Source: Thermococcus sp. 18S1 (GTDB taxonomy: Archaea; Methanobacteriota_B; Thermococci; Thermococcales; Thermococcaceae). From it: 64,000 nt of DNA. A program made the position numbers and the translations under genes. Location: the NCBI RefSeq assembly GCF_012027645.1, contig NZ_SNUU01000001.1, forward strand, positions 124,001-188,000. The letters run 5' to 3'. Positions 10,943-48,149 of this stretch are shown here, one piece after another; position 1 is the first letter of the stretch; each line of letters begins with the position of its first letter. Below the pieces are notes generated by a model that did no database searches, was not told the DNA's origin, and worked only from the letters and a program-made list of their open reading frames with translations.

Positions 10943-10972
10943 AGGTTAAGCTTTACGTTGGATATTTTGTCC
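10943..10972 (-). promoter_or_regulatory. Shared 30-bp element upstream of mutase B12 subunit
   Basis: This stretch matches 48120-48149 at 24 of 30 positions. Plus-strand landmarks are AGGTT at 10943-10947, GCTT, ACGTTGGATA, and the core GGATATTTTGTCC at 10960-10972. The core is 32 bases upstream of the TATA of the B12-binding subunit gene, against 33 bases at the large-subunit gene, a position suited to an activator. It is also close to the TATA (GGCTTTATAACG, about 10977-10988) of the divergent PHP gene, which might be affected too. Confidence 0.7.
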
Positions 10973-11008
10973 AGAAGGCTTTATAACGTCCCCGCGAGAG
11001 GATAGAGC

Positions 11009-11665
11009 ATGCTCAGGTTCCCCCACGACGCCCACACCCACACCACCTACTCGGACGGCAGGGGATCGATAGCCGACAGCGTGGCCGCGGCGGAGGCGAG
11101 GGGGCTGACTCTGCTCGGGATAACGGACCACGGCCACTACTTCGAACCCGGAACCCTCGGCCGCTACGTCAGGGAGGTCAGGTACTGGGGCGAGGACGCG
11201 GAGCTGACGATTCTGGCCGGGGTGGAGGGCAACATAACTCCTGGGGGCGTCGATGTCCCGGACTTCATGGCGGAGAAGCTCGACTACGTGATAGCGAGCG
11301 TCCACGAGTGGCTAGAGAGGCCGGAGGAATACGTGGAACTGGTGAAGCTCGCCCTCGAAGACGACAACGTTGACATCATCGGCCACTTCGGGGCCAGCTT
11401 CCCCTACATCGGCTTCCCGTCCGCCAACGAGCTGGAGGAAATACTCGAGCTGGCGGAGGCTGGGGGCAAGGCCTTTGAGATAAGCTCCCGCTACCGGGTA
11501 CCGGACATCGACTTCATCCGTGAGTGCATAAGGCGCGGGATAAAGCTCACCTTCGCGAGCGATGCCCACTCCCCTGGGGAGGTGGGCGGCGTTTCCTGGA
11601 GCGAGAGAGTATTCAGGAAGGCGGGTGGAACGAGGGAGGACCTCCTGTTCGGGGAGTTCCTGTGA
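11009..11665 (+). CDS. PHP-domain phosphoesterase
   Basis: 218 residues. The polymerase/histidinol phosphatase metal motifs are seen: FPHDAHTHTTYSDGRGS (HxH) at the start, GITDHGHYFE (DH), GVEGNI, a later VDIIGHFG and FASDAHSPGEVG near the C-terminus. Such proteins are trinuclear-metal phosphoesterases; substrates vary (histidinol phosphate, nucleotides), and none is evident here. No histidine-biosynthesis gene is nearby. The start is the first ATG after a TATA (about 10980). It ends 28 bases before the decayed end of the CRISPR array. Confidence 0.85.
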   Translation: MLRFPHDAHTHTTYSDGRGSIADSVAAAEARGLTLLGITDHGHYFEPGTLGRYVREVRYWGEDAELTILAGVEGNITPGGVDVPDFMAEKLDYVIASVHEWLERPEEYVELVKLALEDDNVDIIGHFGASFPYIGFPSANELEEILELAEAGGKAFEISSRYRVPDIDFIRECIRRGIKLTFASDAHSPGEVGGVSWSERVFRKAGGTREDLLFGEFL

Positions 11666-11693
11666 GTAGCAAATCTTCTTGATGTTTCCCGGT

Positions 11694-11724
11694 CTTTCGA
11701 TTCTCCTGGGGGTCGTATTGCAAC
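11694..11724 (-). repeat. Decayed terminal CRISPR repeat
   Basis: A 31-base copy of the array repeat with one inserted base and about five substitutions (it reads CTTTCGATTCTCC... then GTCGTATTGCAAC). It is separated from the first intact repeat by a normal 37-base spacer. Decay marks the leader-distal, oldest end of the array. Confidence 0.85.
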
Positions 11725-11761
11725 TCAAGAGCGCGGACGCGGAGAAGCGACCAGTCCCTCA

Positions 11762-14700
11762 CTTTCAATTCTCCCAGAGTCTTATTGCAACACTCACGAG
11801 ACTTTGAAGTTTCGCTTCCAAATCTCTCTTTCAATTCTCCTAGAGTCTTATTGCAACTCAAGCACACCACTAAGGTCGAACCAGCCGCCCGTGTCCTTTC
11901 AATTCTCCTAGAGTCTTATTGCAACATTCTCAAGCTCCAAAGCATCAACAACCTCACCCTTGCTTTCAATTCTCCTAGAGTCTTATTGCAACGGTAACAA
12001 TCGCGGTGGTTATCGCCGTGATTCCCGCTTTCAATTCTCCTAGAGTCTTATTGCAACCGAGAAGGCAAAGGAGATTGGCCTTAAGCTGGGCACCCTTTCA
12101 ATTCTCCTAGAGTCTTATTGCAACGAACTGCATTGCAGCCCGCATCGCCCTCGCGACCCTCCTTTCAATTCTCCTAGAGTCTTATTGCAACCGGGACCAT
12201 AAGGCCCCGACACACCCACACAAAAAAACTTTCAATTCTCCTAGAGTCTTATTGCAACCAAGCCCTAAGAGCCTCTGCACGAGTTCGGTTTCCTGCTTTC
12301 AATTCTCCTAGAGTCTTATTGCAACCCTTCACGCCCTGGACCCTGCGCAGCTGAATCTTCAGCTTTCAATTCTCCTAGAGTCTTATTGCAACGGCCCTCG
12401 CGAAGGTCTCCGCGCTTGTTGTTATCATGCTTTCAATTCTCCCAGAGTCTTATTGCAACGTGGACCAGAGTCCAATGCAATGTAATGAAGGTCTCTTGTC
12501 TTTCAATTCTCCCAGAGTCTTATTGCAACATAAAGAAGAGCCGCCGGCAGGCCAGCCTCGTAAAGCTTTCAATTCTCCCAGAGTCTTATTGCAACTTGTC
12601 ATACCCCCTCCAACATCTGATTTTAACATTTTTACGACTTTCAATTCTCCCAGAGTCTTATTGCAACTGGGAATAGTGCCCGAACACCCGTGGGAGTACG
12701 GGACTTTCAATTCTCCCAGAGTCTTATTGCAACTTGAATGGCGGGAGATTTACGCCGACGAACAAAGCGAAGCTTTCAATTCTCCCAGAGTCTTATTGCA
12801 ACAATCAGTCCCTCGATGGTGTTGCCTTCTTGCTCAGTCCTTTCAATTCTCCCAGAGTCTTATTGCAACTCCTGACGACTTCATAACCACGTTGGGCTGC
12901 GTAGTCCCTTTCAATTCTCCCAGAGTCTTATTGCAACTTTGGTGAGCCCGCTCTTCATCTCGACGGTGAAAGACCTTTCAATTCTCCCAGAGTCTTATTG
13001 CAACTTTAGAGCTTCTGTAAATATGTGTAACGTCAGACAATGTCTTTCAATTCTCCCAGAGTCTTATTGCAACCCCATAGCGGCGGCTTTTTCATAGGGG
13101 TCTATGAAAACTTTCAATTCTCCCAGAGTCTTATTGCAACGTGTATTATAAGGGCCATACTCTGACGTGAGAAGTGGCTTTCAATTCTCCCAGAGTCTTA
13201 TTGCAACTGGACAACCGCTTTTGCAAATCTAGCCGGGGCCTCTTCCTTTCAATTCTCCCAGAGTCTTATTGCAACGCTCAAGGAACAGGGCATCCGCTAC
13301 CTCGACCTTTACCTCCTTTCAATTCTCCCAGAGTCTTATTGCAACCTACACGGTGCAGAGCTTCATGGAAGAAGCGCGCGAACCTTTCAATTCTCCCAGA
13401 GTCTTATTGCAACGATACTCGCGAGTAGTGGGTCCTTCCCGTCGGTCTCCTTTCAATTCTCCCAGAGTCTTATTGCAACTAATTTACTCCCCTCTACGAC
13501 GGGGACCTTATCCCTCTTTCAATTCTCCCAGAGTCTTATTGCAACCCGAGAGTATCCTCGATTTTCGTCTCGACCTCCTCGACTTTCAATTCTCCCAGAG
13601 TCTTATTGCAACGTTTACTATCATAGTAAACGATTGATAGGTTTAATACTTTCAATTCTCCCAGAGTCTTATTGCAACCTGGGTCTGAGTTTCAACCTGC
13701 ACGTCAAGAGTACCCCTTTCAATTCTCCCAGAGTCTTATTGCAACGGCTGGTATGTTGATAATACTACTTTGGCGATCCGCGCTTTCAATTCTCCCAGAG
13801 TCTTATTGCAACGTTCCATCTGTTCATCCGTGAGTACTACTCTGGTATTCTTTCAATTCTCCCAGAGTCTTATTGCAACATGGCGTTGGCGTGGGTGTTG
13901 ATAGGAGCTATGGCTCTTTCAATTCTCCCAGAGTCTTATTGCAACAAAGGACCATGAGGACAGGACGGACATCACTCCAACGACTTTCAATTCTCCCAGA
14001 GTCTTATTGCAACACAGTTACTCCAGCCACTCTCGTTGCCTCGGCCCTCGCTTTCAATTCTCCCAGAGTCTTATTGCAACTCGGCCCTGGCAGGTACAGC
14101 GGCGACTACTCCTCAACCTTTCAATTCTCCCAGAGTCTTATTGCAACTTAGTTATCAGCACCGACCCCCCCATCATAGAAAACAACTTTCAATTCTCCCA
14201 GAGTCTTATTGCAACATCCCGACAAAGACGACCTCTCAGGACCTCAAAAGCACTTTCAATTCTCCCAGAGTCTTATTGCAACGCGTTATAATCCTCGGGG
14301 CGGGCGACGGCATCAATCCTTTCAATTCTCCCAGAGTCTTATTGCAACTGAAAGCCCGTCGATTATCATGCCGAACAGGCTACCGCTTTCAATTCTCCCA
14401 GAGTCTTATTGCAACTGACGGCAGGATAACGCAGGAGTTTATCACCATTACGCCTTTCAATTCTCCCAGAGTCTTATTGCAACGTTGAACCGGATGTTGT
14501 CCAGCGGTCTAATATTGTCCCTTTCAATTCTCCCAGAGTCTTATTGCAACGTACGCCCTTTTGACTGCCTTAAACTTAAAACTAACTTTCAATTCTCCCA
14601 GAGTCTTATTGCAACGGCTATTAGCTCATACGTCCAGGCCTCGACGGTGAACTTTCAATTCTCCCAGAGTCTTATTGCAACGATTCACTGGGGCCAGTTA

Positions 14701-14883
14701 GAACCCCACGTTTACTTTGCTTTCAATTCTCCCAGAGTCTTATTGCAACGGTTATGACTGCACCGCGAGGAGGAGATGAAAGAAAAGCTTTCAATTCTCC
14801 CAGAGTCTTATTGCAACGCGGTGAGCGTTACGGATAGCGTGGAGCTACTCAAACTTTCAATTCTCCCAGAGTCTTATTGCAAC
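11762..14883 (-). CRISPR. CRISPR array, 47 repeats, no cas genes in window
   Basis: Forty-seven 30-base repeats with 46 spacers of 35-42 bases, mostly 36-38. On the plus strand each repeat begins CTTTCAATTCTCC and ends AGAGTCTTATTGCAAC; the functional strand is therefore minus, starting GTTGCAATAAGAC and ending AATTGAAAG, which gives the usual Thermococcales 5' handle. Repeats at 11828-12392 (nine copies) carry T at position 14 (CCTAG), while the first (11762) and all from 12430 on carry C (CCCAG). Leader and newest spacers are at the right end. The repeat class matches type I-A/I-B and III systems of Thermococcales; effector genes must lie elsewhere. Confidence 0.98.
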
Positions 14884-15338
14884 AGGCGGGAATTTCCCCC
14901 GCTTTGCCCAGTAAAGCTTTGAGGAACTTCCGATATTTAAGCATTTCTGGAAGTCCCCGTTAGGAGAACAGCGACAGGCGCTCAATTCTGGCAACTAGGT
15001 GAGCCCGTTGAGCTATCGGGCGGATGAAACGGCTGCAATTCTCGGGCGAACAAAGATGTGCATGAGATTTCCCCGGACTTCAAAGGGCTCGGAATTTAAA
15101 ACAGGCTGAGAAACCCTCCATAGACTGGAAAAGACTCGCTTATGGTGGAAATATCCATGTTCCCGCCCCCGTGTCGCCGGTATTTCAATCTTCGAAAAAT
15201 TTTCGTTATAGTGACTTGGCATAACAGTAACATGTGGGCACAGTTTCTGGCCTCAAATAATCACCTTCCAGAGAGTGGGGAAAAGGGCTTTTCAAAATTC
15301 CGGGAGTTATGGCAGAGAAAACTTAGAACGGCGAAACC
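14884..15338 (-). promoter_or_regulatory. CRISPR leader and intergenic region
   Basis: A 455-base gene-free stretch next to the newest repeat. On the minus strand CTTAAATATCG at about 14931-14941 is a good TATA box that would start the pre-crRNA some 20-30 bases before the first repeat. Two partial echoes of the repeat occur further into the leader (CTCAATTCTGGCAAC at 14981-14995 and GCAATTCTCGGGCG at about 15035-15048); they may be decayed repeats or integration signals. A 13-bp palindrome CGAAAAATTTTCG lies at 15193-15205. I see no convincing gene; small open frames here have poor composition. Confidence 0.7.
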
Positions 15339-15899
15339 TCAGCGTGATAGGACCTCAAACCCGAGCTCCCTCAACTTCCAGATTATCTCAATGGGGAACC
15401 CGACGACGTTGTAGTAGTCCCCGCGGATCCACTCGACGAAGAGGCCCGCCTTCCCCTGTATGCCGTAGGCCCCGGCCTTGTCCATCGGCTCGCCTGTGTC
15501 GATGTACGCCCAGATGATGTCGTCGTCCAGCTCGCGGAACTTGACCTCCGTAACGGCAACCCCCGAAATCTCCCGGCTCTCGTGGATTATGCAGTAGCCC
15601 GTCGTGACCCTGTGGACCCTCCCGCTGAGGAGCCGGAGCATCTCAAAGGCCTCCTCCCTGCTCCCGGGTTTGCCGAGGATGTGGCCGTCTATGCTGACGA
15701 CGGTGTCGGCGCCGATGACGGTTCCACCCACGCGGTCGTGCACTTCCCTGGCCTTCCTCCTCGCCAGCTCGAGCGCGTACTCGGCGGGGTTTTCTATGCT
15801 GCACTCCTCGCTCGCATTGCTCGGAATAACCTCAAACTCCCGTATGAACCTGGCGAGTATCTCCCGCCGCCTCGGTGAAGCCGATGCCAGAACCAGCAT
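15339..15899 (-). CDS. maf: Maf-like nucleotide pyrophosphatase
   Basis: 186 residues; hydrolyses non-canonical or selected nucleoside triphosphates to monophosphates. The N-terminus LVLASASPRRREIL is the Maf signature, followed by SNASEE, ADTVVSIDGHILGKPG and the later GAYGIQGKAGLFVEWIRGDYYNVVGFP, which is the conserved end of the family. A TATA-like TTTTTTAACC lies about 25 bases before the ATG. Flanked by the CRISPR leader on one side and small membrane proteins on the other. Confidence 0.94.
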   Translation of the reverse strand: MLVLASASPRRREILARFIREFEVIPSNASEECSIENPAEYALELARRKAREVHDRVGGTVIGADTVVSIDGHILGKPGSREEAFEMLRLLSGRVHRVTTGYCIIHESREISGVAVTEVKFRELDDDIIWAYIDTGEPMDKAGAYGIQGKAGLFVEWIRGDYYNVVGFPIEIIWKLRELGFEVLSR

Positions 15900-15943
15900 G
15901 ATATCCCCTTCCGGAAAGGGTTAAAAAATCTTGCGAGACGGGT

Positions 15944-16168
15944 TCACTCCATCCCCTCAGCCTTTCTCTCCAGCGCCTTTATCTCGCGCCGCAGTTCCCG
16001 CATCTCCGACTTCAACCCCGCAAGTTCATCCGCTATTCCCAGGATCGTCCATCCGACTGCGGCGAGGATCAGAATTACCATCAGGGTGAAGAACCATCCC
16101 ATGGGATACACCAGTGCGAGGATTGAAAGGACGATTATGACAAACCCGCGGGTGGAGATATCAGCCAT
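15944..16168 (-). CDS. Small membrane protein with C-terminal coiled coil
   Basis: 74 residues: two adjacent hydrophobic helices (about 8-45, GFVIIVLSILALVYPMGWFF and LMVILILAAVGWTIL) followed by a charged heptad-like helix (ELAGLKSEMRELRREIKALERKAEG). Its ATG lies inside the end of the preceding gene (8-base overlap), so the two small proteins are co-translated. The same helix-pair plus coiled-coil plan in both suggests they interact. Family not recognised. Confidence 0.75.
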   Translation of the reverse strand: MADISTRGFVIIVLSILALVYPMGWFFTLMVILILAAVGWTILGIADELAGLKSEMRELRREIKALERKAEGME

Positions 16169-16394
16169 CGATGGGGCCCTCCCGGCCTTTTAAGGATTCC
16201 AGCTCCGCCCTCAGGGATTCGAGCTTCTCGTTGAGCTCCCTCCTCATCTCCCCCATCTTCCAGACGACGGTGCCGAAGGCGATGATGAGGAGACCAAGCC
16301 CCAGGGCACGGCCCTCGGTTATCAGAATACCCGCCAGCCCGAGGGCGCTCAAAACGGCACCGAGCGTTTCAAGGGGGTCGTACCTCTCCCCCAC
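16161..16394 (-). CDS. Small membrane protein with C-terminal coiled coil
   Basis: 77 residues with two hydrophobic stretches (LGAVLSALGLAGILITEG and LGLGLLIIAFGTVVWKMG) and a C-terminal coiled coil (MRRELNEKLESLRAELESLKG). GTG start at 16394 is supported by GGTGGT upstream. It is the first gene of a two-gene operon with 15944-16168 and sits behind a TATA box enclosed by a perfect inverted repeat (16419-16442). Function unknown; the two proteins probably form a membrane complex (inference). Confidence 0.72.
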   Translation of the reverse strand: MGERYDPLETLGAVLSALGLAGILITEGRALGLGLLIIAFGTVVWKMGEMRRELNEKLESLRAELESLKGREGPIDG

Positions 16395-16418
16395 TTCTTA
16401 CCACCGTGGAAAAGAAGA

Positions 16419-16442
16419 GAGCAAACTATAAAAAGTTTGCTC
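16419..16442 (-). promoter_or_regulatory. Inverted repeat enclosing a TATA box
   Basis: GAGCAAACT and its exact reverse complement AGTTTGCTC (9 bp each) flank ATAAAA. On the minus strand the centre reads CTTTTTATAG, a TATA box about 35 bases before the GTG start at 16394. The right arm overlaps the stop codon of the PIN-ATPase gene. It may be an operator on the TATA box or a terminator hairpin of the upstream gene; there is no T-run after it, which favours the operator. Confidence 0.55.
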
Positions 16443-18249
16443 ATGCGGTCGCCCAGATGGGTATGCCCGCCTCAAGGAGCCTCTTGAGTTCCTTGCCTAT
16501 GGGCGTGCTCTTGCTGACCTTCACGAGTCCTTTCTTGCTCGGTGTGGCCGTGAAGACGTACTGCTCGCCGCCGTAGAACTTGAGCGGCCTCTTCGCGTAG
16601 TCCGGCGAGACACGGAGGACGATGGTTTTCTTCTTCTCCTCGATTTCCACGGGGAGCTTCTCCTTGGGCTTCTCCGCCTCGCGCTCGGCGAAGCTCTTGA
16701 CATCGATGCTTATTCCTATCCTCTTCTCCAGCTCGGTGATTCTCTTGCCCTTCTTACCGATTATCGCGGGGATGTCGAACTCGTCCGCGTAGACCACGGC
16801 CTTGTGGGGACTGACTATCTCGACCTCCGCATAGACATCGGGCAGGAACTTCTTTATCTCCTGCTTGAGCCTCTTCTCCGCGAGTTTTAGTGCCGGGGCC
16901 TTCTCCTCCTTTTTCACCGGGACGACGCTTATCTCCTCGCCGTAGGTGTATATCTCGTACTCGAGCTCGCCGGTCTCAAAGTCGCGAACCTCGATGACGG
17001 GCCTTGCGAGGTCTTCCTCCCTCATGCCGCTCGGCACCTTGACTAGGTACTCCAGCGTGAGAACCTTCGCGACCCTGCCTGCCTTGATGAAGAGTACCGT
17101 ATCGACTATCTGGGGAATCATTCCCAGCTCGACCCTTCCGATGAACCTCTGGACGGCGTCTATCGGCTTCGTCGCGTGCACAACTCCGACCATGCCCACT
17201 CCCGCGAGCCTGAGGTCGGCGTAGATCTTAAAGTCGCTCGTCTTCCTCATCTCGTCGAATATCGTGTAGTCCGGCCTGACGAGGAGCAGTATGTCGCCGG
17301 TCAGCTCCATCCTGCCGTTCAGGGCCGTGTACTGGGTGATTTCCTCGCCCACCTGGAGGTCGCGGGGCTTTTCCATGGTCTTCACTATCTTGCCCATTCC
17401 CGCGTACCATTCCGCCAGGGCCTGGGCAAAGGTCGTCTTACCCTCACCCGGCGCTCCCGCTATGAGTATGCCCTCCGCCTTGTCCGCCAGCCTCTCCAGG
17501 AGCTTTTCACTGAGCTCGTACTCCTCGATGCTCAGCTTCCTGACGGGTCTGACTGCCGTTATCTCTATCCTGTCCGCAAAGGGAGGCTTGGCGATGACTA
17601 TCCTGTAGTTGCGGAGCTGGACGACGGTGGCGCCCGGCTCGTCGAGCTCTATGAAGCTCTCGGGGTCGCGCCTGGCCCTCTCCACTATGTCGTCCGCTAT
17701 CTCCTCAAGCTCTCCATCGCTCAGAACCTCATCGCGGACGGGCACGAGCCTCCATTCTCCTGGCCGTCCCTTCTTTGCGAACGGCCTCATTCCGCCCTTG
17801 AGGTGAACGCTCATGGTGGTCTCGTCGAAGAAGTCCTCGAGGCGGTGCCGCACCTCCTTCTTCGCGGTCAGATAGACCACGTCTATGCCCTTGGCGATGG
17901 CCACGTCCCTCTGAACCCTGTCGCCCGTGATGAGCGTCGCTCCGAGGGCCTGCGCGGCCTCACGAACCATGCTGTCGATCTCGCCGGACTTTGCCTTCCG
18001 TATCTGCCAGAGCTCGGGCCTCTCGCCGTAGAACTCGAGGAGGATTCTGTCGCTGTCCGCCATCTCGCGGAGCTTTTTGAGTTCCTCGAGACCCACGTGG
18101 CCTATGGCCTTTCCCTCGTTGGCCTGGTGCTCTATCTCGGCGATGACGGCTTCGGGGATGACAACCTTGACCTTCTCGCCAAGCGACGAAAGGAACTGCG
18201 TGAGCCTGCCATCGACGATAACGCTCGTATCTGCAACGAATACCTTCAT
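16441..18249 (-). CDS. PIN domain-ATPase-KH protein (PilT/VapC-like ATPase)
   Basis: 602 residues. N-terminal PIN nuclease-like domain (VFVADTSVIVDGRLTQ, later EIDSMVREAAQALGATLITGDRVQRDVA), a central secretion-ATPase-like RecA domain with Walker A GAPGEGKTTFAQ and Walker B-like YTIFDEMRKTSDF, and a C-terminal KH RNA-binding motif AIIGKKGKRITELEKRIGI. The combination is conserved in archaea and is usually annotated as a PilT-family ATPase; the PIN and KH domains point to RNA rather than pili. ATG at 18249 is chosen with GGGGTGGG upstream. Divergent from the MinD-like gene. Confidence 0.93.
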   Translation of the reverse strand: MKVFVADTSVIVDGRLTQFLSSLGEKVKVVIPEAVIAEIEHQANEGKAIGHVGLEELKKLREMADSDRILLEFYGERPELWQIRKAKSGEIDSMVREAAQALGATLITGDRVQRDVAIAKGIDVVYLTAKKEVRHRLEDFFDETTMSVHLKGGMRPFAKKGRPGEWRLVPVRDEVLSDGELEEIADDIVERARRDPESFIELDEPGATVVQLRNYRIVIAKPPFADRIEITAVRPVRKLSIEEYELSEKLLERLADKAEGILIAGAPGEGKTTFAQALAEWYAGMGKIVKTMEKPRDLQVGEEITQYTALNGRMELTGDILLLVRPDYTIFDEMRKTSDFKIYADLRLAGVGMVGVVHATKPIDAVQRFIGRVELGMIPQIVDTVLFIKAGRVAKVLTLEYLVKVPSGMREEDLARPVIEVRDFETGELEYEIYTYGEEISVVPVKKEEKAPALKLAEKRLKQEIKKFLPDVYAEVEIVSPHKAVVYADEFDIPAIIGKKGKRITELEKRIGISIDVKSFAEREAEKPKEKLPVEIEEKKKTIVLRVSPDYAKRPLKFYGGEQYVFTATPSKKGLVKVSKSTPIGKELKRLLEAGIPIWATA

Positions 18250-18331
18250 CTCTCCCACCCCTTTTCTCTCTCAACGGCCTCTGCGGCTAAAGGTTCATAA
18301 AGGTTTAGCCGAAAATAGAATGGGTGGGACG

Positions 18332-19069
18332 ATGGGAAGGCTCATCTCAATAGCCTCCGGCAAGGGGGGCACCGGAAAAACCACCACAACCGCGAACCTC
18401 GCCATAGCCCTCGGCAAGATGGGATACAAGGTCTGCGCCGTTGATGCGGATTTAACCATGGCAAACCTAAGTCTGGTTATGGGAATAGATGACGCTTACA
18501 CGACTATCCATGACGTCCTCTCCGGCAGGACGGATATAAACAACGCCATATACGCCACGACCTACGAGAACGTCCACGTTATTCCCGCCTCCATAGACTG
18601 GGAGCACGTCATCCGGGCGGACCCAAGGAAGCTTCCCGAAACCATAAAACCCCTCAAAAAGAGCTTTGATTTCGTGATAATCGACTCCCCCGCGGGGCTC
18701 CAGATGGACGCCATGAACGCGATGATGAGCGGGGAGGAGGTTCTTCTCGTAACGAACCCGGAGATATCCTGCATCACTGACACGATGAAGGTAGGAATGG
18801 TTCTCAAAAAAGCCGGCCTTGTGGTTCTGGGCTTCGTGCTCAACCGCTACGGCAGGAGCGATAACGACATCCCGCCCGACGTGGCGGAGGAGGTCATGGA
18901 GATTCCCCTGCTGGCGGTTATTCCGGAGGACCCACCGGTAAGAGAAGCAACGCTTGAGGGCGTTCCAGTCGTCGAGTACAGGCCGAACTCGGCCGGTGCC
19001 CGGGCATTCATGGAGCTGGCGGAGAGGATAACCAGGATAGCCGGCCTCAAGGCAAAGGTGATGGGATGA
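18332..19069 (+). CDS. MinD/ParA-type ATPase
   Basis: 245 residues. Deviant Walker A SGKGGTGKTTTTANL at 10-24, switch I DADLTMANLS and switch II FVIIDSPAGLQ identify a MinD-like positioning ATPase; the C-terminal helix (ELAERITRIAGLKAKV) may be amphipathic and membrane-binding as in MinD. ATG at 18332 follows GGTGGG; an ATG at 18320 is in frame but lacks a ribosome site. TATA region about 18292-18303. It overlaps the GPN-loop GTPase gene by 4 bases. No MinC or MinE is present, as expected for archaea. Confidence 0.92.
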   Translation: MGRLISIASGKGGTGKTTTTANLAIALGKMGYKVCAVDADLTMANLSLVMGIDDAYTTIHDVLSGRTDINNAIYATTYENVHVIPASIDWEHVIRADPRKLPETIKPLKKSFDFVIIDSPAGLQMDAMNAMMSGEEVLLVTNPEISCITDTMKVGMVLKKAGLVVLGFVLNRYGRSDNDIPPDVAEEVMEIPLLAVIPEDPPVREATLEGVPVVEYRPNSAGARAFMELAERITRIAGLKAKVMG

Positions 19070-19809: not shown

Positions 19810-19931
19810 TTCACCCATCCGGTGCAAATTTGGACGGATGTTCAGAATTTCCGGCCGTTTCCTATCACTATCCCACCTCGAAAGCGGGAAGTCTTTTCTT
19901 AACGACGACCAACTTCCAGCGGTGGGAGAGC

Positions 19932-21374: not shown

Positions 21375-21402
21375 ACGTTCCTGAACGTTCTTTAATAGTC
21401 CC

Positions 21403-21431: not shown

Positions 21432-21516
21432 CCTGCCAGCGGGGCTAACACTGCCGAACGGTTTCGTGAAAAAGGCTTAAATAGGCCCTTTTCCAACGGT
21501 AAACTGGTGAGAGAAC

Positions 21517-37614: not shown

Positions 37615-37809
37615 CTCAATCACCTCACTCCGATGAGAGTCACATTTTCCCGTCCGTAAAAGCGGTTATAACTTTTCTCCTCTCTTTTTGACGATAGGAA
37701 ACTCGACGGACGTTAAAGAACCAGAGGTTGGACACCGTTGATTCAGAACCCCGGGAACTTCGAAATACTTATTAGGTTCTTTGTCTAAATATATGGCCCA
37801 GGTGGTAAC

Positions 37810-38298: not shown

Positions 38299-38346
38299 AC
38301 AAACCCTAAATAGCCCCATGACTTTCTTTCTCCAAGGGGTGATCGT

Positions 38347-39372: not shown

Positions 39373-39386
39373 CCCTTTTCTTTTCC

Positions 39387-40286: not shown

Positions 40287-40306
40287 TCCAACACCCCCAA
40301 CCGGCC

Positions 40307-40323
40307 GGCTATTTTATATAGCC
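40307..40323 (-). promoter_or_regulatory. Inverted repeat over the tfb TATA
   Basis: GGCTAT and ATAGCC flank five bases (TTTAT on the plus strand), covering a TATA-like TATATAAAATAG 25-35 bases before the tfb start. A second TATA-like TTTATAAGG lies just upstream inside the end of the preceding gene. Symmetry at the promoter of a general factor suggests autoregulation, but a 6-bp arm may be chance. Confidence 0.4.
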
Positions 40324-40324
40324 C

Positions 40325-40603
40325 TTATAAACCTTCGCCTTTTTTAACCACGTAGCGGAGTAACCAGGCGAGGTCCTCGCGCTTGAAGGTTATCCGCTCC
40401 AGAACCCGGACGTCCCAGTCCTCCTCAACGATGTTCGCGTAAATCCAGAGGAAAACGGGGTCGTCGTCGGTTCCAACGTGGAGGTTGCGGTAGAGAAGAT
40501 CGACCGTCCCGTCCTTGTTCTTCTTAACCGAGACGGCCTTCCAGGTGTCCAGACTAACCTCTCCCTTTTCGTCAAGGATATCCACTATCTGCTTGGCGTC
40601 CAT
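40325..40603 (-). CDS. Conserved small archaeal protein (92 aa)
   Basis: 92 residues from the ATG at 40603, which follows GGAAGGTGA. Acidic, alpha/beta: MDAKQIVDILDEKGEVSLDTWKAVSVKK, then YRNLHVGTDDDPVFLWIYANIVEEDWDVRVLERITFKREDLAWLLRYVVKK. No cysteine, no membrane helix. It sits 17 bases after the PDCD5-type gene and before tfb, so it shares an operon with the first. The family is unknown to me, but its fixed-looking position among information-processing genes suggests a translation or transcription role (inference). Confidence 0.78.
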   Translation of the reverse strand: MDAKQIVDILDEKGEVSLDTWKAVSVKKNKDGTVDLLYRNLHVGTDDDPVFLWIYANIVEEDWDVRVLERITFKREDLAWLLRYVVKKGEGL

Positions 40604-40620
40604 TGGGTCACCTTCCGGGC

Positions 40621-40959
40621 TCACCACTTAATCGTGTAGTCCCTGCGCGTTCTCTCGTCTATTTGCGCCAGAATCCTCTTGAGCTTGGCGTCGTCGATGG
40701 GCTCCCTTATCTGGCCCGCCTGATAGAGCTGAACCAGAACGAGCTCAACCTGTCTCGCAAGCTCTGGCTTGACGAGCTTAACCCTGCCGAGCCTCTCCCT
40801 GGCCTCGGGGGTGAGAATTCTCCGCATTATGGCATCGAGCTGGGCCTCAAGCTCCATCTCCTGCCTCAAAGCCTCCTCCTGGGCCTTCTGCTGTTCAAGA
40901 TACTTCTTCTGGAGTTCCATGAGTTTGCGCTTCCTGATTTCCTCTATGTCCTCAGCCAT
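40621..40959 (-). CDS. PDCD5-type DNA-binding protein
   Basis: 112 residues. A long basic-acidic helix (IEEIRKRKLMELQKKYLEQQKAQEEALRQEMELEAQLDAIMRRILTPEARERLGRVKLVKPELARQVELVLVQLYQAGQI) is the archaeal PDCD5/TFAR19 family signature. Relatives bind DNA and nascent-chain or prefoldin partners. ATG at 40959 is supported by GGAGGTGAGGGCC; TATA GCCTTTTAACC at about 40995-41005. First gene of a two-gene operon. Confidence 0.93.
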   Translation of the reverse strand: MAEDIEEIRKRKLMELQKKYLEQQKAQEEALRQEMELEAQLDAIMRRILTPEARERLGRVKLVKPELARQVELVLVQLYQAGQIREPIDDAKLKRILAQIDERTRRDYTIKW

Positions 40960-41018
40960 GGCCCTCACCTCCGGGTTAAGATTGGGGAGGGGGTTAAAAG
41001 GCTTTGCGTTTCAGGGCC

Positions 41019-41996
41019 TCATCTTCTCCTCAGGGTCAGGATGAGAACCGCCACCCCGAGGATGGCCACCACAAGCCACACCGCCGTTTTAAAGCCCCCA
41101 AAGGGTTCAGAGCCGTCAGAACATTGGGGATATCTGAAATCGACCAGCTTGGGCCAGGAGGATGAGGACCACGTATGAGCGGGTTCTAGGAAGGTATACT
41201 CCGTGAGACGTTCGCCGCGATAGAAGAGCAATGGAACTTCCGAGGGGTTCTCAATGGGAGTCGAGCTGTTGTCTAAGTGGTGACCGGAAACATAGTAGAT
41301 GAGCACTCCACCGGCGACCGGAACTGCGGCGAGATGCTCAATGTCTTGCATGGAGTAGTATTCCTCCAGCTCCGCGATGGGTATCTCGTACCGCTCTCCG
41401 GTACCCTCAACCACGAGGCTTTGACCGGAGATGCTGACGTTGAACTTGGGTGGAACGTAAGAGACGTGCTCCCCTGCGGGCTCGTTTACCCCAAAGAAAG
41501 CGTCTTCGGTAACGTGGTAAACCTCGAACGTCCCGTTGCGGTGGGCAACGTAAACGTCCGGGGGATTGAGCCTCATACTTCCGGAATCCTGACGGAGCTC
41601 GCCCAGCGTGCGAACGCATTTCTCTCCAGGCATGAACCAGAACAGGTGGGTGCCGTTGAAGACGAGCCAAGCGTTGGCGGGCAGATCCGGGGAACCTGGA
41701 GGTACAAAGGCGACCGGCAAGTCCTCGGCGTATCCTGATCTCCCAACGTATCTCAGAGAGCTGCCGTTGAAGTGGTAGATATCAATCCAAGCGGAGACCG
41801 GTGAGGATGGACAGCACGGCCCAGTTCCGGGGCACCGGCACTGATGGTCATAGAGCCACCAAGTGGCCAGCAGGAAAGCGTCCTCGCCGTTGGAGATGAC
41901 CGTTATGGAGCCCAGACGGAACTCTCCGGCACTCGCAAGAGGGAGGATGAGCAGATACAGCACAGCAAGAACCGTGAGGGTTTTTCTCAGCGGCAT
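41019..41996 (-). CDS. Secreted, C-terminally anchored hypothetical protein
   Basis: 325 residues. Signal peptide at 5-23 (TLTVLAVLYLLILPLASAG), a long beta-rich body with paired cysteines (HQCRCPGTGPCCPSSP, about 52-67; GEKCVRT; YPQCSDGS), and a C-terminal helix TAVWLVVAILGVAVLILTLRRR at 304-325 that ends in three Arg, the layout of an archaeosortase-like or simple tail anchor. The Cys-Gly-Pro of CGP-CTERM signals is missing. Probable cell-surface protein; function unknown. Confidence 0.75.
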   Translation of the reverse strand: MPLRKTLTVLAVLYLLILPLASAGEFRLGSITVISNGEDAFLLATWWLYDHQCRCPGTGPCCPSSPVSAWIDIYHFNGSSLRYVGRSGYAEDLPVAFVPPGSPDLPANAWLVFNGTHLFWFMPGEKCVRTLGELRQDSGSMRLNPPDVYVAHRNGTFEVYHVTEDAFFGVNEPAGEHVSYVPPKFNVSISGQSLVVEGTGERYEIPIAELEEYYSMQDIEHLAAVPVAGGVLIYYVSGHHLDNSSTPIENPSEVPLLFYRGERLTEYTFLEPAHTWSSSSWPKLVDFRYPQCSDGSEPFGGFKTAVWLVVAILGVAVLILTLRRR

Positions 41997-42122
41997 ATCC
42001 TCACCTGATGTAGCGTTCTGAGTATCAACCGGAACCCATAGAAAAATTCAAGGCAGTGCTAAAAACATTTCCTGGCATAGAAAGCCCGCAGAAGGGGACA
42101 GAGGTTTGAAAAAAGGCCGAGC

Positions 42123-42575
42123 TCAGTACTTCTTGAGCTCGGGAATCTGCTCCTCAAGCTCCTTCTTGAGCTCGGTGGCGATCTTGTCGAGGAAGCTCTG
42201 TCCCTGCGGGGTGACGGTCCTTCCCTCACCCGGAACCTTCTGGACAAAGCCGGCGGCCTCGAGCTGCTGGAGGGCCTTCCTGATGATGCTTCCTCCGGCC
42301 TTGTAGAAGTGCTCCGGGGCGTGACCGCGGTTCTTCCTGCCGCCGTACCAGGTCCTGAGTCTCTCGATGCCGACCGGGCCGTCGACGTAGACCTTCCTGA
42401 AGACGCTGGCGACCCTGTAGTACCACCAGTCGTCCTGCTCCGGGATCCTCTCCTTGTGCCTGCCGGTCTTGACGAACGGGGCCCACTCGGGCGGCTTTAT
42501 GGCCTCTATCTCCTTGAGTTTCTGCGCAACCCTCTCAACGAGCAAATCACCGGGAACGTCGTAAACAGTCGCCAT
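42123..42575 (-). CDS. rps19e: Ribosomal protein S19e
   Basis: 150 residues; archaeal/eukaryal small-subunit protein needed for late 40S-type maturation. Family signature [92 protein letters not shown]. Directly downstream of the CRM-domain gene (3-base gap), so co-transcribed. Confidence 0.98.
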
Positions 42576-42578
42576 CCT

Positions 42579-42995
42579 TCAATCCCTCCCCTTCTTGAAT
42601 TTCCTCCTGAATTGAGCGATATCGAGCTTGACTTTCTTAACGGGCTTCTCCTCCCGCTTTTCCTTCGAAAGCTCCTTTCTCTGGAGCTTCCTTAAATACT
42701 TTTCCCAACCTTCCCTCGGTTTGAACAATATAAACCTTTTGCCGCGCACGTCGATGAGTTCGCTGTCGGTCATTTCCGCGACTTTTCTGGCCAGGGCCTG
42801 CCTGTCGAGTCCAGTGTTGATAAGGGCGCCCTTCCTTATCTCGACCTTGAGGATGCCGTCCTTCTCCAGCTGAGTCTTTATCTCTTCGATGACACCCTCA
42901 TCAAGCCCTCGCTTGCCTATCCACGCGCGTGGAGGGATATCGTAGTATCTCGCCCGCACGGCGCGTCTCACCTTACCCGGTAAGCGTTTCTCCAT
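42579..42995 (-). CDS. YhbY/CRM-domain RNA-binding protein
   Basis: 138 residues. The CRM (YhbY) fold is visible: KVRRAVRARYYDIPPRAWIGKRGLDEGVIEEIKTQLEKDGILKVEIRKG, with a GKxG loop, though the last part of the archaeal protein is a basic tail (KLQRKELSKEKREEKPVKKVKLDIAQFRRKFKKGRD). Bacterial YhbY binds pre-50S. ATG at 42995 chosen with AGAGGTGAG upstream; a GTG at 43004 is in frame. Promoter TTTTATAAGG at about 43033-43042. Confidence 0.85.
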   Translation of the reverse strand: MEKRLPGKVRRAVRARYYDIPPRAWIGKRGLDEGVIEEIKTQLEKDGILKVEIRKGALINTGLDRQALARKVAEMTDSELIDVRGKRFILFKPREGWEKYLRKLQRKELSKEKREEKPVKKVKLDIAQFRRKFKKGRD

Positions 42996-43115
42996 CTCTC
43001 TCACCTCTAAGCCTCTCGCGGTTTGCTGAAGGCCTTATAAAAGTTGGCCTTTTAAAGGTGTTGGCGAACGGGTGAAGAAGCAACCAAAACAGTCAAAAAC
43101 AAAGCCAAAGGACCG

Positions 43116-43271
43116 TCACCCTTCACTCTCTTCCGTTTTCTCCCCAGTTCTCTCCTTATCCTTCCGCCCTTCTGCGGCGTTGGCTTCCATTGCCTCGGCC
43201 CTTCGGGCTTTTTTCCGCTCACGGCGGTTTTTAATGACCTTTGCGGCCACGATTTTTCTTCCAATTCCCAA
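43116..43271 (-). CDS. Small basic protein, TTG start
   Basis: 51 residues with a TTG at 43271 read as Met: (M)GIGRKIVAAKVIKNRRERKKARRAEAMEANAAEGRKDKERTGEKTEESEG. Strongly basic N-terminal half, charged disordered-looking C-terminal half. AGGTGA lies three bases before the TTG (close), and a clean TATA, CCCTTAAATAGG on the minus strand, lies at about 43301-43312. It precedes the CRM-S19e operon. Likely an RNA-binding or ribosomal-associated small protein; the start codon is the weak point. Confidence 0.6.
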   Translation of the reverse strand: MGIGRKIVAAKVIKNRRERKKARRAEAMEANAAEGRKDKERTGEKTEESEG

Positions 43272-43441
43272 TTGTCACCTACACCCAGTAAGGGAGCACC
43301 TATTTAAGGGTTTGCTTTCGAAAAATGGGGAACATTTGCCGAACCCAAAAAGTTTCTGAGATATTGATGTAAAGTTCAGATTTCCGACTGGCGAGGGGAT
43401 ACGTTTTTAATCCAGAAGCGGGAGGATGGAGGGGATGAAAA

Positions 43442-44047
43442 ATGAAGGTTCACCACCTCTACTCCGGCGGAAAGGACTCAAGCTTGAGCGCGTGGATTCT
43501 AACCAGACTCGGCTACGATGTGAGACTGGTAACCGTCAGCTTCGGCCTCCTTGACAACTGGAGCTTTGCCAGAGAGACCGCAGAAAGGCTCGGCTTCGAG
43601 CACCAGGTCGTCTATCTGCCAGAGGAGATTCTGGAGAAAGCCGCGGACATGGCGATCAAAGACGGCCACCCTAACAACGCGATTCAGTTCATCCACGGGA
43701 GGGCCCTCGAGGCTATAGCGGCGATGCCTGAAGTCGAGAGAGTCAGCGATGGGACAAGGAGGGACGACAGGGTACCTTTCCTCGACCTGCCGAAGGCTCG
43801 CTCCCTGGAGGACCGCTTCAACGTCGCTTACATAAGGCCCCTCCTCGGCCTCGGCTACAAGACGATACGGGAGCTGACTGAGAAGCTCTTCGTCGTTGAA
43901 ATCAGGGAGAGCGAGGAGCTGGAGAAGGCCGACTACGAGGTCGAGCTGAGGCACCTGCTGCGCGAAAGGGGAATCGACCCTCTGGAGATATTCCCGAAGA
44001 GGCACTACCAGTCGAGGGTTCTCGGCTGGAAGGAGAAAGGGATTTAA
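43442..44047 (+). CDS. PP-loop ATPase family protein
   Basis: 201 residues. N-terminal PP-loop HLYSGGKDSSLSAW binds ATP alpha-phosphate; further conserved stretches are HPNNAIQFIHGRALEAIA, VSDGTRRDDRVP and SLEDRFNVAYIRPLLGLGYKTI. Resembles archaeal asparagine-synthase-like/tRNA-modifying N-type ATP pyrophosphatases, but no Cys pair for thiolation is visible. TATA GTTTTTAATCC about 30 bases before the start; GGAGGGGATGA ribosome site. Substrate unknown. Confidence 0.85.
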   Translation: MKVHHLYSGGKDSSLSAWILTRLGYDVRLVTVSFGLLDNWSFARETAERLGFEHQVVYLPEEILEKAADMAIKDGHPNNAIQFIHGRALEAIAAMPEVERVSDGTRRDDRVPFLDLPKARSLEDRFNVAYIRPLLGLGYKTIRELTEKLFVVEIRESEELEKADYEVELRHLLRERGIDPLEIFPKRHYQSRVLGWKEKGI

Positions 44048-44080
44048 ATTTTCTTTCCCACTCATCCCCGGGGACGTCGA

Positions 44081-44848
44081 ATGAAAATCCTCACGGTTTC
44101 CGGTGGCAGATTTTTCTCAGGCAAATCTCGAAGACTGGTGGAGGAAATCTTCGGGAGGATCGAGGTTCTCGAGAACGCGGTCCTGTTCCCTGAGAGCGTC
44201 GAGGCCGAATACGGAAGGTTCAACGCGGCAAGTTCCGTTCTGATAGGCCCCAGAATAGGGGGAAGGGGTTCCAATTACTACACATCGGCCTGGCTCTTCG
44301 ATACATCAAGAAAGTTCGTGCCAGAGAAGAGCGTCCTCTCCAGTGAGCTCCCATTAACTCCGGCCGAATACAGGCTTGAACTCGACGTTCCTGGCTCCGG
44401 AAGGATTGAGCTGCCCGGATACAGGCTCAAAAACGGGGTTCTGCTTCTCTACATCACGCCGAGCTACAGGTTTACGTTCCCCAGCGACGTCATGACGGCA
44501 GGAGACCTGGAGGACTACGCCCAGGTATCGCTCAAACCGTCCGAGAATGGCTTCGAAGGTGAGGTCAGCATGAGCCTCCAGAAGGCCGATTACGTTGACC
44601 TCGCCCTCGTAGGCAAGATGGTCGAGGACATCGTCTTCTTCGGTGACGAACCTGGGAGGTTCACCTACGAGTTCTTAAGCGAGCCGATTCTCGTGGTGTC
44701 CCATGAGAAAATCCTTGATCCACCGAAGCTCCAGAAAGCCATGAACGACCTCTCCACGGTGAGCGGACACGGAAAATTTACGCTCAGGCTCAACGTTGGA
44801 AAGGCGAGGGAAGAAATGGAGTTCTCCGTCGGGCTGGGGGTAGAATAG
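44081..44848 (+). CDS. Conserved hypothetical protein (255 aa)
   Basis: 255 residues, no membrane helix. N-terminal part has Gly- and Arg-rich strands (SGGRFFSGKSRRLVEEIFGRIEVLENAVLF, VLIGPRIGGRGSNYYTS), centre is beta-rich (LPGYRLKNGVLLLYITPSYRFTFPSDV), and the C-terminal part has repeated basic-acidic strands ending ELREEMEFSVGLGV-like. Starts 33 bases after the PP-loop gene, with its own TATA GATTTAAATT at about 44041-44050. Not recognised; likely a Thermococcales-specific protein. Confidence 0.7.
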   Translation: MKILTVSGGRFFSGKSRRLVEEIFGRIEVLENAVLFPESVEAEYGRFNAASSVLIGPRIGGRGSNYYTSAWLFDTSRKFVPEKSVLSSELPLTPAEYRLELDVPGSGRIELPGYRLKNGVLLLYITPSYRFTFPSDVMTAGDLEDYAQVSLKPSENGFEGEVSMSLQKADYVDLALVGKMVEDIVFFGDEPGRFTYEFLSEPILVVSHEKILDPPKLQKAMNDLSTVSGHGKFTLRLNVGKAREEMEFSVGLGVE

Positions 44849-44857
44849 AAAAGGAAA

Positions 44858-45088
44858 TCAGAGCCCGCTGAGCTTTCTGACTATCGGGTTCTCGGCCTCT
44901 TCGGGCTTTATCTCCTCGACGCTCTCGATCCATATCTTGTTCCTCGGAACGCGGTGCTTGCTGCCGACCTCGGAGTAGAGTATCTCAACGACATCCTCGG
45001 CCTTGAGACCGCGGTATTCCCTGGTGAACCTCTCCCTCTTTCCGTTCCTCTCGAAAACGCCCTTAACGCGGAAGACCTTAACCTCCAT
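44858..45088 (-). CDS. rplX: Ribosomal protein L18a/LX
   Basis: 76 residues; [60 protein letters not shown] is the archaeal LX (L18Ae/L20a) signature. Last gene of the L39e-L31e-aIF6-LX operon; the typical next genes in many archaea (prefoldin alpha and ftsY) are not here, since a convergent gene follows. Confidence 0.96.
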
Positions 45089-45105
45089 AGCTCACACCTC
45101 CATCA

Positions 45106-45792
45106 TCAGTCAAGGAAGCCCAAGGCTTCTTCAATCTTCACTATCTCGGGTCCGGTGGTCAGGTGCCCAACGACGACACCGTGAGAGTTCGCCAGCATGC
45201 AGGAACCAACGAAGGGAACGCCCATGTTGGCGGTTCCGACGTAGATATCAACCTTGAACAGGTCGCGGAGCCACTCGAGCTCCTCGTCGGTCGCTTCGGG
45301 GTGAACGAGTCCGCCCCTGTTGGTGACCACTCCAACGCTTCCAACCGCGTGGAAGTCACCTATCATGCCCCTCTCGACCTCGACGCCGAGTACATCCTCG
45401 AGCCTCTTGGCCTCCTCGCGGCTGAACTTTGCACTCACCAGCGCCGCCCTGTCGTTGGCGAGGATGAGGTTGCCGAAGGCTGTGAGGGTGCTCTGGAACG
45501 GGACTATCTCGGTATCAATCCCGTACTCTTTGAGCTGGCCGTTTATCTTCTCCAGCTCTGCGTCCCACGCGTACCAGGGGACGATCATTGCGTTGGAGTT
45601 CCCGGCCGCGAATATACCCACTATGCGGGACTTCATTATGCTCGTTTCAATGAGTGGAACCTTGAGAACCTCCCTGAGAACCTCGAGCTTCTTCTCGCCG
45701 AGGCCCTCCCTGATAAGGGCTAGCCTGTCGGTGGCGGTGCCGTAAACGCCAAGATATGGAGAGTTCTCAAAATCGAGCCTTTCTATGTGCAT
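45106..45792 (-). CDS. Translation initiation factor aIF6
   Basis: 228 residues; binds the large subunit and prevents premature joining with the small one. Five-fold repeated alpha/beta structure (pentein) is visible as five similar modules, for example NSPYLGVYGTATDRLALI, SRIVGIFAAGNSNAMIVP and GNLILANDRAALVSAKF. 17 bases before LX and 27 after L31e, all one operon. Confidence 0.97.
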   Translation of the reverse strand: MHIERLDFENSPYLGVYGTATDRLALIREGLGEKKLEVLREVLKVPLIETSIMKSRIVGIFAAGNSNAMIVPWYAWDAELEKINGQLKEYGIDTEIVPFQSTLTAFGNLILANDRAALVSAKFSREEAKRLEDVLGVEVERGMIGDFHAVGSVGVVTNRGGLVHPEATDEELEWLRDLFKVDIYVGTANMGVPFVGSCMLANSHGVVVGHLTTGPEIVKIEEALGFLD

Positions 45793-45819
45793 CTCGTCAC
45801 CTCGTTAAATTAAAAGTAA

Positions 45820-46089
45820 TCAGGCGAGGGAGACCTTGGCAATCCTCTTGCCCTCTTCCTCTTCGACAACGACCTTGACGCGGAGCTTGTTGGGCGGCTT
45901 CTCCGCTCCGCGCTCCCAGAGCTTCTCGTTGACGTCGGTGCCGATGATGACCTCGTCGGCCTTGGCGTGCCTGGCTATCCACTCGCGGACGAACTTGGCA
46001 GCCCTCGGGGCCCTCTTCCAGCGCGGAACGCGCTTCTTTATCTTCTTGATGGGAACGACGAATATGACTTCCTCTCCGGGCTTGATCAT
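45820..46089 (-). CDS. rpl31e: Ribosomal protein L31e
   Basis: 89 residues. [67 protein letters not shown] is the L31e family in full. It lies next to the polypeptide exit tunnel in the archaeal ribosome. Preceded by L39e (10-base gap). Confidence 0.98.
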
Positions 46090-46099
46090 CTAAATCACC

Positions 46100-46255
46100 T
46101 CACTCCTTAAGCTTGGTCCTCCTCCACATCCTTCTCTTCGGGTGGGTCATGACCTTCCTGTTGGTCTTGACGATGACCCAGACCGGAATGCGCCTGTTCT
46201 GCTTGGCGGCCTTGGCAAGTCTGAGCTTCTTCGCAAGCGGCTTGTTTCTCGCCAT
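46100..46255 (-). CDS. rpl39e: Ribosomal protein L39e
   Basis: 51 residues: [51 protein letters not shown], the whole L39e family consensus, which lines the exit tunnel. Too short for usual gene calls. GGGAGGTG precedes the ATG and a TATA (GCTTAAAAAAG) lies at about 46308-46318. First gene of the operon with L31e, aIF6 and LX. Confidence 0.97.
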
Positions 46256-46374
46256 AACTACACCTCCCGGGATTATCATGATGCCTGTTGATGCTTTGGG
46301 TATTCTTTTTTAAGCTTTTTCGTGGGGTTTTAAGGTTTTCTGAAGGGGCTGGGTAGAAAAGAAAAGGACGAAAA

Positions 46375-48063
46375 TCAGAATATCAGCGGTGCCCTGTACT
46401 CGCCCCAGACCTCGCGGAGGACGTCCGTAACTTCGCCGAGGGTCGCGAGGTGTCTGTGGGCCTCGATGATGTAGGGCATGAGGTTCTCGTCCTCGGTTTC
46501 GGCCGCCTTCCTGAGCTTATCGAGGGCCTCCTCGACCTTCTTGTTATCGCGCTCGGAGCGGAGCTTCTTGAGCCTCTCGACCTGCTTCTCCCTGATGCTC
46601 GGGTCGACCTTGAGTATCTCAACGTCGAGCGGTTCATCAACGATGAACTCGTTGACGCCGACGATGATGCGCTTCTTCTCCTCAACTTCCCTCTGGTACT
46701 TGTAAGCGCTCTCCGCTATCTCCTTCTGGATGTAGCCCCTCTCGATGGCCCTCATCATGCCGCCCATCTTCTGAATCTTCTCGATGTACTTGAGGGCCTC
46801 CTCGTAGATGTGGTCGGTGAGCCACTCGATGTAGTACGAGCCTCCGAGCGGGTCTATGGTGTCAACGACACCGCTCTCGTAGGCGATGATCTGCTGGGTC
46901 CTGAGGGCTATCCTCACGCTCTTCTCGGTCGGAAGGCTCAAAGCCTCATCGTAGGAGTTGGTGTGAAGTGACTGTGTTCCGCCGAGGACAGCTGCGAGAG
47001 CCTGTATGGCGACCCTGACTATGTTGTTCTCCGGCTGCTGGGCGGTGAGCGTTGAACCAGCCGTCTGGGTGTGGAAGCGCAGGAGCATTGAGCGCGGGTT
47101 CTTGGCGTTGAACCACTCCTTCATGATGTATGCCCAGAGCCTTCTCGCGGCCCTGAACTTGGCTATCTCCTCAAGGAAGTTGTTGTGGGCGTTGAAGAAG
47201 AAGCTCAGCCTTCCGGCGAACTTGTCAACGTCCATGCCCCTGTCTATGACGGCCTTAACGTACTCAATACCGTCGGCGAGGGTGAACGCAACCTCCTGAA
47301 CCGCGTTGGCACCGGCCTCGCGGATGTGGTAGCCGCTTATTGAAATCGGGTTCCACTTCGGCACGTGCTCGGCGCAGTACATGATGATGTCAGTGGTCAG
47401 CCTCATGCTCGGCTGCGGCGGGAATATGTAGGTTCCTCTCGCTATGTACTCCTTCAGGATGTCGTTCTGAACGGTTCCGCGGAGCTGGTTTGGCTGGACG
47501 CCCTGCTCCTCGGCAACGAGGATGTACATGGCGAGGAGGTTTGCCGCGGTCGAGTTTATGGTCATGCTCGTCGAAACCTTGTCGAGCGGGATTCCGTCGA
47601 AGAGGACGCGCATGTCCCAGAGGGAGTCGATGGCGACACCGACCTTTCCAACCTCACCCTCACTCATCGGGTGGTCGGAGTCGTAACCTATCTGGGTCGG
47701 CAGGTCAAAGGCGACGCTCAGACCGGTCTGCCCCTGCTCGAGGAGGTATTTGTAGCGCCTGTTGGATTCTTCAGCGGTTCCGAAACCGGCGTACTGCCTC
47801 ATGGTCCAGAAGCGGCCGCGGTACATGGTGGCGTAGACACCGCGGGTGAACGGGTACTCACCGGGGAAGCCGAGCTTTTCGAGGTAATCCCAGTCCTCGC
47901 CGAGGTCAGCGGGAGTGTAGGTGCGCTTTATTTCAAAACCGTCGTCGGTCATGAACTTCTCCTTTCTCTCGGGCCTCTTCTCGATGAACTTTTTAACCGT
48001 CGTTTCGTCCCAGCGCTTTTCCTCCTCCCTAATCTTCGCGAGCTTCTCCTTATCGAAAGTCAT
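46375..48063 (-). CDS. Methylmalonyl-CoA mutase, large (catalytic) subunit
   Basis: 562 residues; converts (R)-methylmalonyl-CoA to succinyl-CoA by an adenosylcobalamin radical mechanism. TIM barrel with [44 protein letters not shown] and [33 protein letters not shown]. It lacks the B12-binding domain, supplied by the protein at 10456-10887. ATG at 48063 follows GGTGG; TATA TTTTTATA at 48096-48103. It shares the upstream 30-bp element with the small-subunit gene. Confidence 0.98.
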
Positions 48064-48119
48064 GCCTACCACCTGCCCCTATTTGGGTGCCGGCCTATAA
48101 AAAGCTTTTACATACCTAA

Positions 48120-48149
48120 AGGTTGGGCTTGACGTTGGATAAATTATCC
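48120..48149 (-). promoter_or_regulatory. Shared 30-bp element upstream of mutase large subunit
   Basis: Second copy of the element at 10943-10972: 24 of 30 positions agree (AGGTT, GCTT, ACGTTGGATA, TCC). The core GGATAAATTATCC (48137-48149) is 33 bases upstream of the TATA. Equal spacing at two separated genes is hard to explain without a shared regulator that activates from upstream. Confidence 0.72.

Follow-up and report, generated by a model that had tools for sequence, protein, structure and literature searches.

A conserved palindrome as the probable operator of a cobalamin regulon with position-dependent control in the Thermococcaceae

Introduction

In bacteria, the cobalamin riboswitch controls B12 synthesis, B12 uptake and B12-independent isozymes. 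A second mode of control is represented by transcription factors of the CarH type, which sense adenosyl-B12 directly. For some archaea, Rodionov, Vitreschak, Mironov and Gelfand are said to have proposed in 2003, by genome comparison, a DNA signal named the "CBL-box" for a hypothetical B12 regulator.

Here we describe a palindrome of the form GGAYA-N3-TRTCC with an AT-rich centre that is found at methylmalonyl-CoA mutase promoters and at further promoters in Thermococcaceae. The targets of repressed type identified below follow a control logic like that of the bacterial cobalamin riboswitch, from which the palindrome differs in being a DNA element upstream of or at the promoter. Direct sensing of adenosyl-B12, as by CarH-type factors, is what the model proposed here would need. 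Like the CBL-box as reported, the palindrome would be a DNA signal of a hypothetical archaeal B12 regulator. This kind of system is therefore probably known already; the sites at the mutase, meaB and synthetase genes, the split of positions around the TATA box and the stepwise spacings may or may not have been described with it. A literature search on the motif found no paper within its limited coverage. A further point of comparison is PH1932, an ArsR-family winged-helix protein, the orthologue of which adjoins one target in genus g1, with the site between the two genes. As for the organisms themselves, a 2009 survey gives all four Thermococcales that it covered as B12 users, and the row for them in its table appears to score the mutase and the class II reductase as present but the synthesis of B12 as absent (PMC2667541).

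Results and Discussion

A shared element at the promoters of the two mutase subunit genes

The window, by which we mean the whole stretch of 64,000 nucleotides from Thermococcus sp. 18S1 that was analyzed, holds the genes for both subunits of methylmalonyl-CoA mutase (Table 1). A first-pass annotation had noticed that these genes share an upstream 30-bp element, and this is borne out by our comparison: the two 30-mers are identical at 24 of 30 bases, and the next-best 30-mer on either strand of the window reaches 18 against the first. The palindromes within them share one orientation to their genes, at 32 and 33 bp ahead of the respective TATA boxes; here and throughout, TATA boxes are sequence predictions. 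The pattern GGAYA-N3-TRTCC has three matches in the window against 0.14 expected, a number reached in none of 100 shuffles. The third match had been overlooked and lies between the B12-binding subunit gene and meaB. The likeness of the two mutase promoters extends past the palindrome: over the 21 bp that follow it they show 54% agreement (about 70 genomes each), against a mean of 26% and a maximum of 35% in 30 column shuffles.

Table 1. Sites, predicted promoter elements and genes of the mutase loci, in positions of the window
Feature	Coordinates	Strand	Remarks
Palindromic site GGACAAAATATCC	10960..10972	-	Upstream of the mutase B12-binding subunit gene; inside 30-bp element 10943-10972
TATA box TTTAAATA of the B12-binding subunit gene	10920..10927	-	32 bp from site; sequence prediction
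Methylmalonyl-CoA mutase B12-binding subunit	10456..10896	-	TIGR00640 above cut-off; likely ATG 10887
Third site GGATAATTTGTCC	10420..10432	-	Before meaB, after the meaB TATA
TATA-like box TTTATAAT of meaB	10442..10449	-	Starts 17 bp before site; sequence prediction
meaB, mutase-associated GTPase	9449..10417	-	TIGR00750 above cut-off; likely ATG 10408
Methylmalonyl-CoA epimerase	9048..9452	-	TIGR03081 above cut-off; overlaps meaB end
Palindromic site GGATAATTTATCC	48137..48149	-	Upstream of the mutase large subunit gene; inside 30-bp element 48120-48149
TATA box TTTTTATA of the large subunit gene	48096..48103	-	33 bp from site; sequence prediction
Methylmalonyl-CoA mutase large subunit	46375..48072	-	TIGR00641 above cut-off; likely ATG 48063

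Conservation of the sites across the family

Using tblastn and known coordinates, we extracted the regions upstream of the B12-binding subunit, the large subunit and meaB from a sample of the 94 Thermococcaceae genomes (label f1). The B12-binding subunit is matched in 80 of them and the large subunit in 88; 70 genomes were taken for each. Sites agreeing at 9 or 10 of the 10 letters precede the B12-binding subunit gene in 69 of 70 genomes (the exception being L283) and the large subunit gene in 70 of 70, in one case (L258) at a greater distance. For meaB, 68 of 70 genomes have an upstream site if agreement at 8 or more letters is accepted, and 56 of 70 if at least 9 are required. When the upstream regions are shuffled, 9 or more letters are reached in about 1.4-1.8% of them (200 bp), or in 0.3% for the 60-bp regions of meaB. 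The palindrome thus occupies fixed promoter positions in the orthologues of three genes under six genus labels, as expected of the operator of a conserved regulon. Far from being absent upstream of the orthologous subunit genes of relatives, the element is nearly universal there, and because a site in a fixed place precedes both genes, the earlier proposal that the mutase halves are co-regulated across 36 kb is well founded.

Enrichment of the palindrome and its wider set of targets

A search of this genome with the loose 10-letter pattern barely exceeds its control, with 12 places against 9 for the reversed control pattern, and the loose form is therefore unsuitable alone for target finding. 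In contrast, the AT-core form GGAYAAWWTRTCC is far commoner than its matched control, with 697 strand-matches against 31 in the 94 family genomes, where one palindromic place may score on both strands. It is present in 92 of these 94 genomes, the two without it being incomplete, and in 21 other genomes of the class outside the family it gives 33 strand-matches against 15 for the control. A hand tally was made in the genomes in which every strict site could be placed (13 genomes: G000-G002, G012-G018, G023, G073 and G086). Of its 84 distinct strict sites, 68 are at mutase, meaB, synthetase, mmdA, nrdJ, nrdD, cbiB or btuF-like genes; MATE or radical SAM genes account for 3 more, and the remaining 13 fall in other places.

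Targets were collected from the surroundings of 80 relatives' stretches and two from this genome, and by profile searches. Besides the mutase genes and meaB, the recurrent targets are nrdJ and nrdD (the B12-dependent and B12-independent ribonucleotide reductases, respectively), cbiB, cobT, a gene for a BtuF-like binding protein (with match scores under the curated cut-offs), mmdA for methylmalonyl-CoA decarboxylase, an acyl-CoA synthetase, a radical SAM protein and a MATE exporter. The mutase, nrdJ, nrdD, cbiB and cobT genes were named by profile; the synthetase target is an alpha-type subunit with Succ_CoA_lig and CoA-binding domains and, like mmdA, is a target in parts of the family only. 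Hence the search for further B12 or propionate genes with the element, which the first-pass annotation had proposed, finds several (e.g., nrdJ, nrdD, cbiB, cobT and mmdA), and sites are carried by B12-dependent enzymes, B12-independent counterparts and genes of B12 salvage and uptake, as expected of a B12 regulon.

For four targets we examined the 30 loci closest to the query, picked by this closeness and not by the site, and nearly all from genus g1 for some of the genes. At 9 or more letters the site is present in 30 of 30 loci for nrdJ (a gene found in 82 genomes) and 30 of 30 for nrdD (52 genomes), in 13 of 30 for mmdA (90 genomes) and in only 7 of 30 for cbiB (77 genomes). Many nrdJ and nrdD matches lie in open frames that greatly exceed the length required by the query, and the nrdD matches of G011, G033, G034 and G089 are split, which hints at possible inteins. 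The genome under study has no match for nrdD and no credible match for cbiB (a single hit at 23% identity, E 6e-4), and therefore lacks two targets of repressed type.

In one cluster (L339), cbiB, cobT and the BtuF-like gene are accompanied by a gene matching CobQ and one matching an aminotransferase; the corresponding cluster in L353 contains CobS and CobZ as well as a CobY-like gene. Near cbiB or btuF-like genes there is also a gene matching the uracil-DNA glycosylase superfamily (L353:11470-12222), and frames resembling it occur in the B12-gene stretches L339, L342, L344, L345 and L347. In some genomes the MATE and radical SAM genes have a site 9 bp upstream of TATA; their role with respect to B12 is not clear. 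Further sites are found at hypothetical genes (L106, L110, L114, L119, L122 and others) and within genes (e.g., L112, L116, L118 and L160). Among the former, L114:1508 and L122:1573 are two similar small proteins that begin with a signal-like stretch and match no family, with a strict site upstream in two genomes.

Two classes of site position relative to TATA

The targets fall into two classes by the position of the site. In the mutase subunits, acyl-CoA synthetase, mmdA and nrdJ it lies upstream of TATA. For the B12-binding subunit the distance from site to TATA is 32-33 bp in 60 of 69 genomes, 30 bp in 1, 22 bp in 7 and 12 bp in 1; the eight with spacers of 22 or 12 bp, about one or two helical turns shorter, all belong to genus g3. 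For the large subunit (70 genomes) it is 33 bp in 61, 32 in 2, 34 in 1, 24 or 25 in 4, 21 in 1 and 76 in 1. The synthetase set, which counts a few genomes twice owing to duplicate copies, has 44 sites in 49 loci, with spacings of 31-34 bp in 23, 10-14 in 14, 21 in 1 and 16, 17, 26, 27 or 42 in 6. The mmdA sites are 31-32 bp from TATA in 12 of 13 cases, and in 22 of 30 nrdJ loci a TATA-like box follows 83 bp after the end of the site. Helical phasing of these spacings is weak when each gene-spacing state is counted once (R 0.38 at 10.5 bp, p 0.013), and spacings of 16, 17 and 25-27 bp are off phase; a 10.5-bp periodicity is suggestive only.

In the second class, made up of nrdD, cbiB, cobT, the btuF-like gene and meaB, the site lies on or after TATA. 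In 28 of 30 nrdD loci the start of a TATA-like box precedes the site by 28-32 bp, and in 68 of 68 meaB regions by 9-18 bp. Among loci chosen for having a site, the box starts 7-8 bp before in 7 of 7 for cbiB, 10-14 bp before in 7 of 7 (5 genomes) for cobT and 14-29 bp before in 5 of 5 (3 genomes) for the btuF-like gene. In archaeal promoters a position upstream of TATA suits activation and one on or after TATA suits repression. A protein bound at the sites of this second class would therefore more likely repress. The earlier claim of one activator of the mutase halves accordingly divides in two: the 32-33 bp upstream of TATA do suit an activator, but the factor does not serve the mutase alone, the palindrome also standing before nrdJ, nrdD, cbiB, cobT, the BtuF-like gene, meaB, the acyl-CoA synthetase and mmdA.

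A model of a B12 regulator acting in both directions

Since the palindrome recurs at genes other than those of the mutase, and partly on or after TATA, a B12 regulator acting both ways is a better fit than a mutase activator. The sites, their conservation, their target genes and their positions are observed in the genomes themselves. We consider it likely that the palindrome, with its AT-rich centre, serves as operator for a cobalamin regulon kept through the Thermococcaceae and read by one position-dependent regulator. From the observed pattern we infer a single DNA-binding protein that would read all sites, as a dimer, when B12 is plentiful, and likewise B12 as its signal and the sign of regulation. 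Where the site lies upstream of TATA, the protein would help to recruit the transcription machinery and so turn on the B12-using genes, or the pathway behind them, that is, both mutase subunits and nrdJ and, in parts of the family, the acyl-CoA synthetase and methylmalonyl-CoA decarboxylase. Where the site lies on or after TATA, it would block initiation at genes that are dispensable with B12, namely nrdD and the genes of corrinoid salvage and uptake. Against this model, meaB serves a B12 enzyme and yet has its site after TATA; perhaps its own promoter is shut while the upstream promoter supplies the transcript. Also counting against the model are the sites at MATE and radical SAM genes, the absence of nrdD and of a credible cbiB from this genome, the low share of cbiB and mmdA loci with a site, the weak helical phasing, the match scores of the BtuF-like protein under the cut-offs and the negative outcome of the search for a regulator described below.

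A bolder version, which we regard as quite possible though a little short of probable, is that an archaeal B12-sensing factor switches between B12-dependent and B12-independent synthesis of DNA precursors and sets the mutase, salvage and uptake together with it. The sign of its action would be given only by the position of the palindrome relative to TATA, and activation would be tied to helical phase, as with the spacings of 12, 22 and 32 bp for the same gene in different genomes. The sites offer a ready bait for the regulator, and the list of targets gives the expected sign for each gene; the natural spacing variants provide a test of how one factor in an archaeon could exert activation as well as repression.

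Alternative readings and candidates for the regulator

The fourth site in this genome brought up the ArsR-family neighbour orthologous to PH1932 (PDB 1ULY, 2CWE) as the protein that reads the palindrome. All 30 loci examined from genus g1 have the site in the interval that separates this gene from the divergently oriented acyl-CoA synthetase gene, and the query is matched in 94 of 94 genomes, with weak paralogues only in a few incomplete ones. Nevertheless, we hold this candidate to be unlikely, as it is disfavored across genera: outside g1 the site is upstream of the ArsR gene in only 3 of 20 loci and missing in 17, and in the upstream regions examined by eye a different repeated element, AACGTTNAAA, is found near the start of that gene. 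The distance from the site to the synthetase TATA moreover varies in helical steps, the ArsR gene being merely a neighbor. A propionate or methylmalonyl-CoA activator that senses an acyl-CoA of the pathway and controls mutase, MeaB, epimerase, decarboxylase and synthetase, with the other sites secondary, would account for the sites at the mutase subunits, meaB, mmdA and the synthetase. We find it distinctly unlikely, given that nrdJ and nrdD (both 30 of 30), cbiB and cobT lie outside the pathway and share B12 with the mutase.

The sites in all 30 nrdJ and all 30 nrdD loci examined could equally be ascribed to an NrdR-type regulator of ribonucleotide reductases that senses nucleotides, the other targets having been gained later; the best-conserved targets, however, include the mutase subunits, and cbiB and cobT are corrinoid genes, making this very improbable. 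Finally, the conservation might reflect core-promoter architecture or shared DNA ancestry with no specific regulator involved. The stretch from palindrome to TATA is indeed also conserved in the two mutase promoters, and genomes within one family are not independent. Yet the palindrome occurs at unrelated promoters with varied positions and flanks, its AT-core form outnumbers the control (697 against 31), and in genus g3 the spacer is altered with the palindrome retained, and so we judge such an origin very improbable as well.

In searching for the regulator required by a two-way B12 regulon, we found that, besides the mutase subunit, the Pfam B12-binding domain (PF02310) matches a single further open frame in this genome, of 434 residues; no clear candidate for a CarH-type regulator emerged. 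The Rfam covariance model detected no cobalamin riboswitch at the gathering threshold in 140 kb (the window, L338, L339, L341 and L350). For 12 large stretches out of 20, the translated frames were inspected by eye, a procedure that can overlook small or unusual proteins, and no recurrent regulator gene was seen in these B12 clusters. This reading covered all frames above 70 residues in L339, L342 and L344, and frames of 75 to 329 residues near the sites in L338, L345, L347, L348, L350, L353 and L355-L357.

Genes adjoining the sites

The PH1932-type ArsR gene belongs to a conserved neighborhood (L004:1-1383, L073-L102 and L206-L225), in which it is followed by a DUF211 gene and often by a second ArsR gene. 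In the window, a divergent PHP-domain gene (11009-11665, plus strand) has a TATA-like box just 6-8 bp past the site at 10960-10972 and may therefore share its control. Just beyond this gene lies a CRISPR array (11828-12392, minus strand) with nine repeats of the Rfam family CRISPR-DR6.
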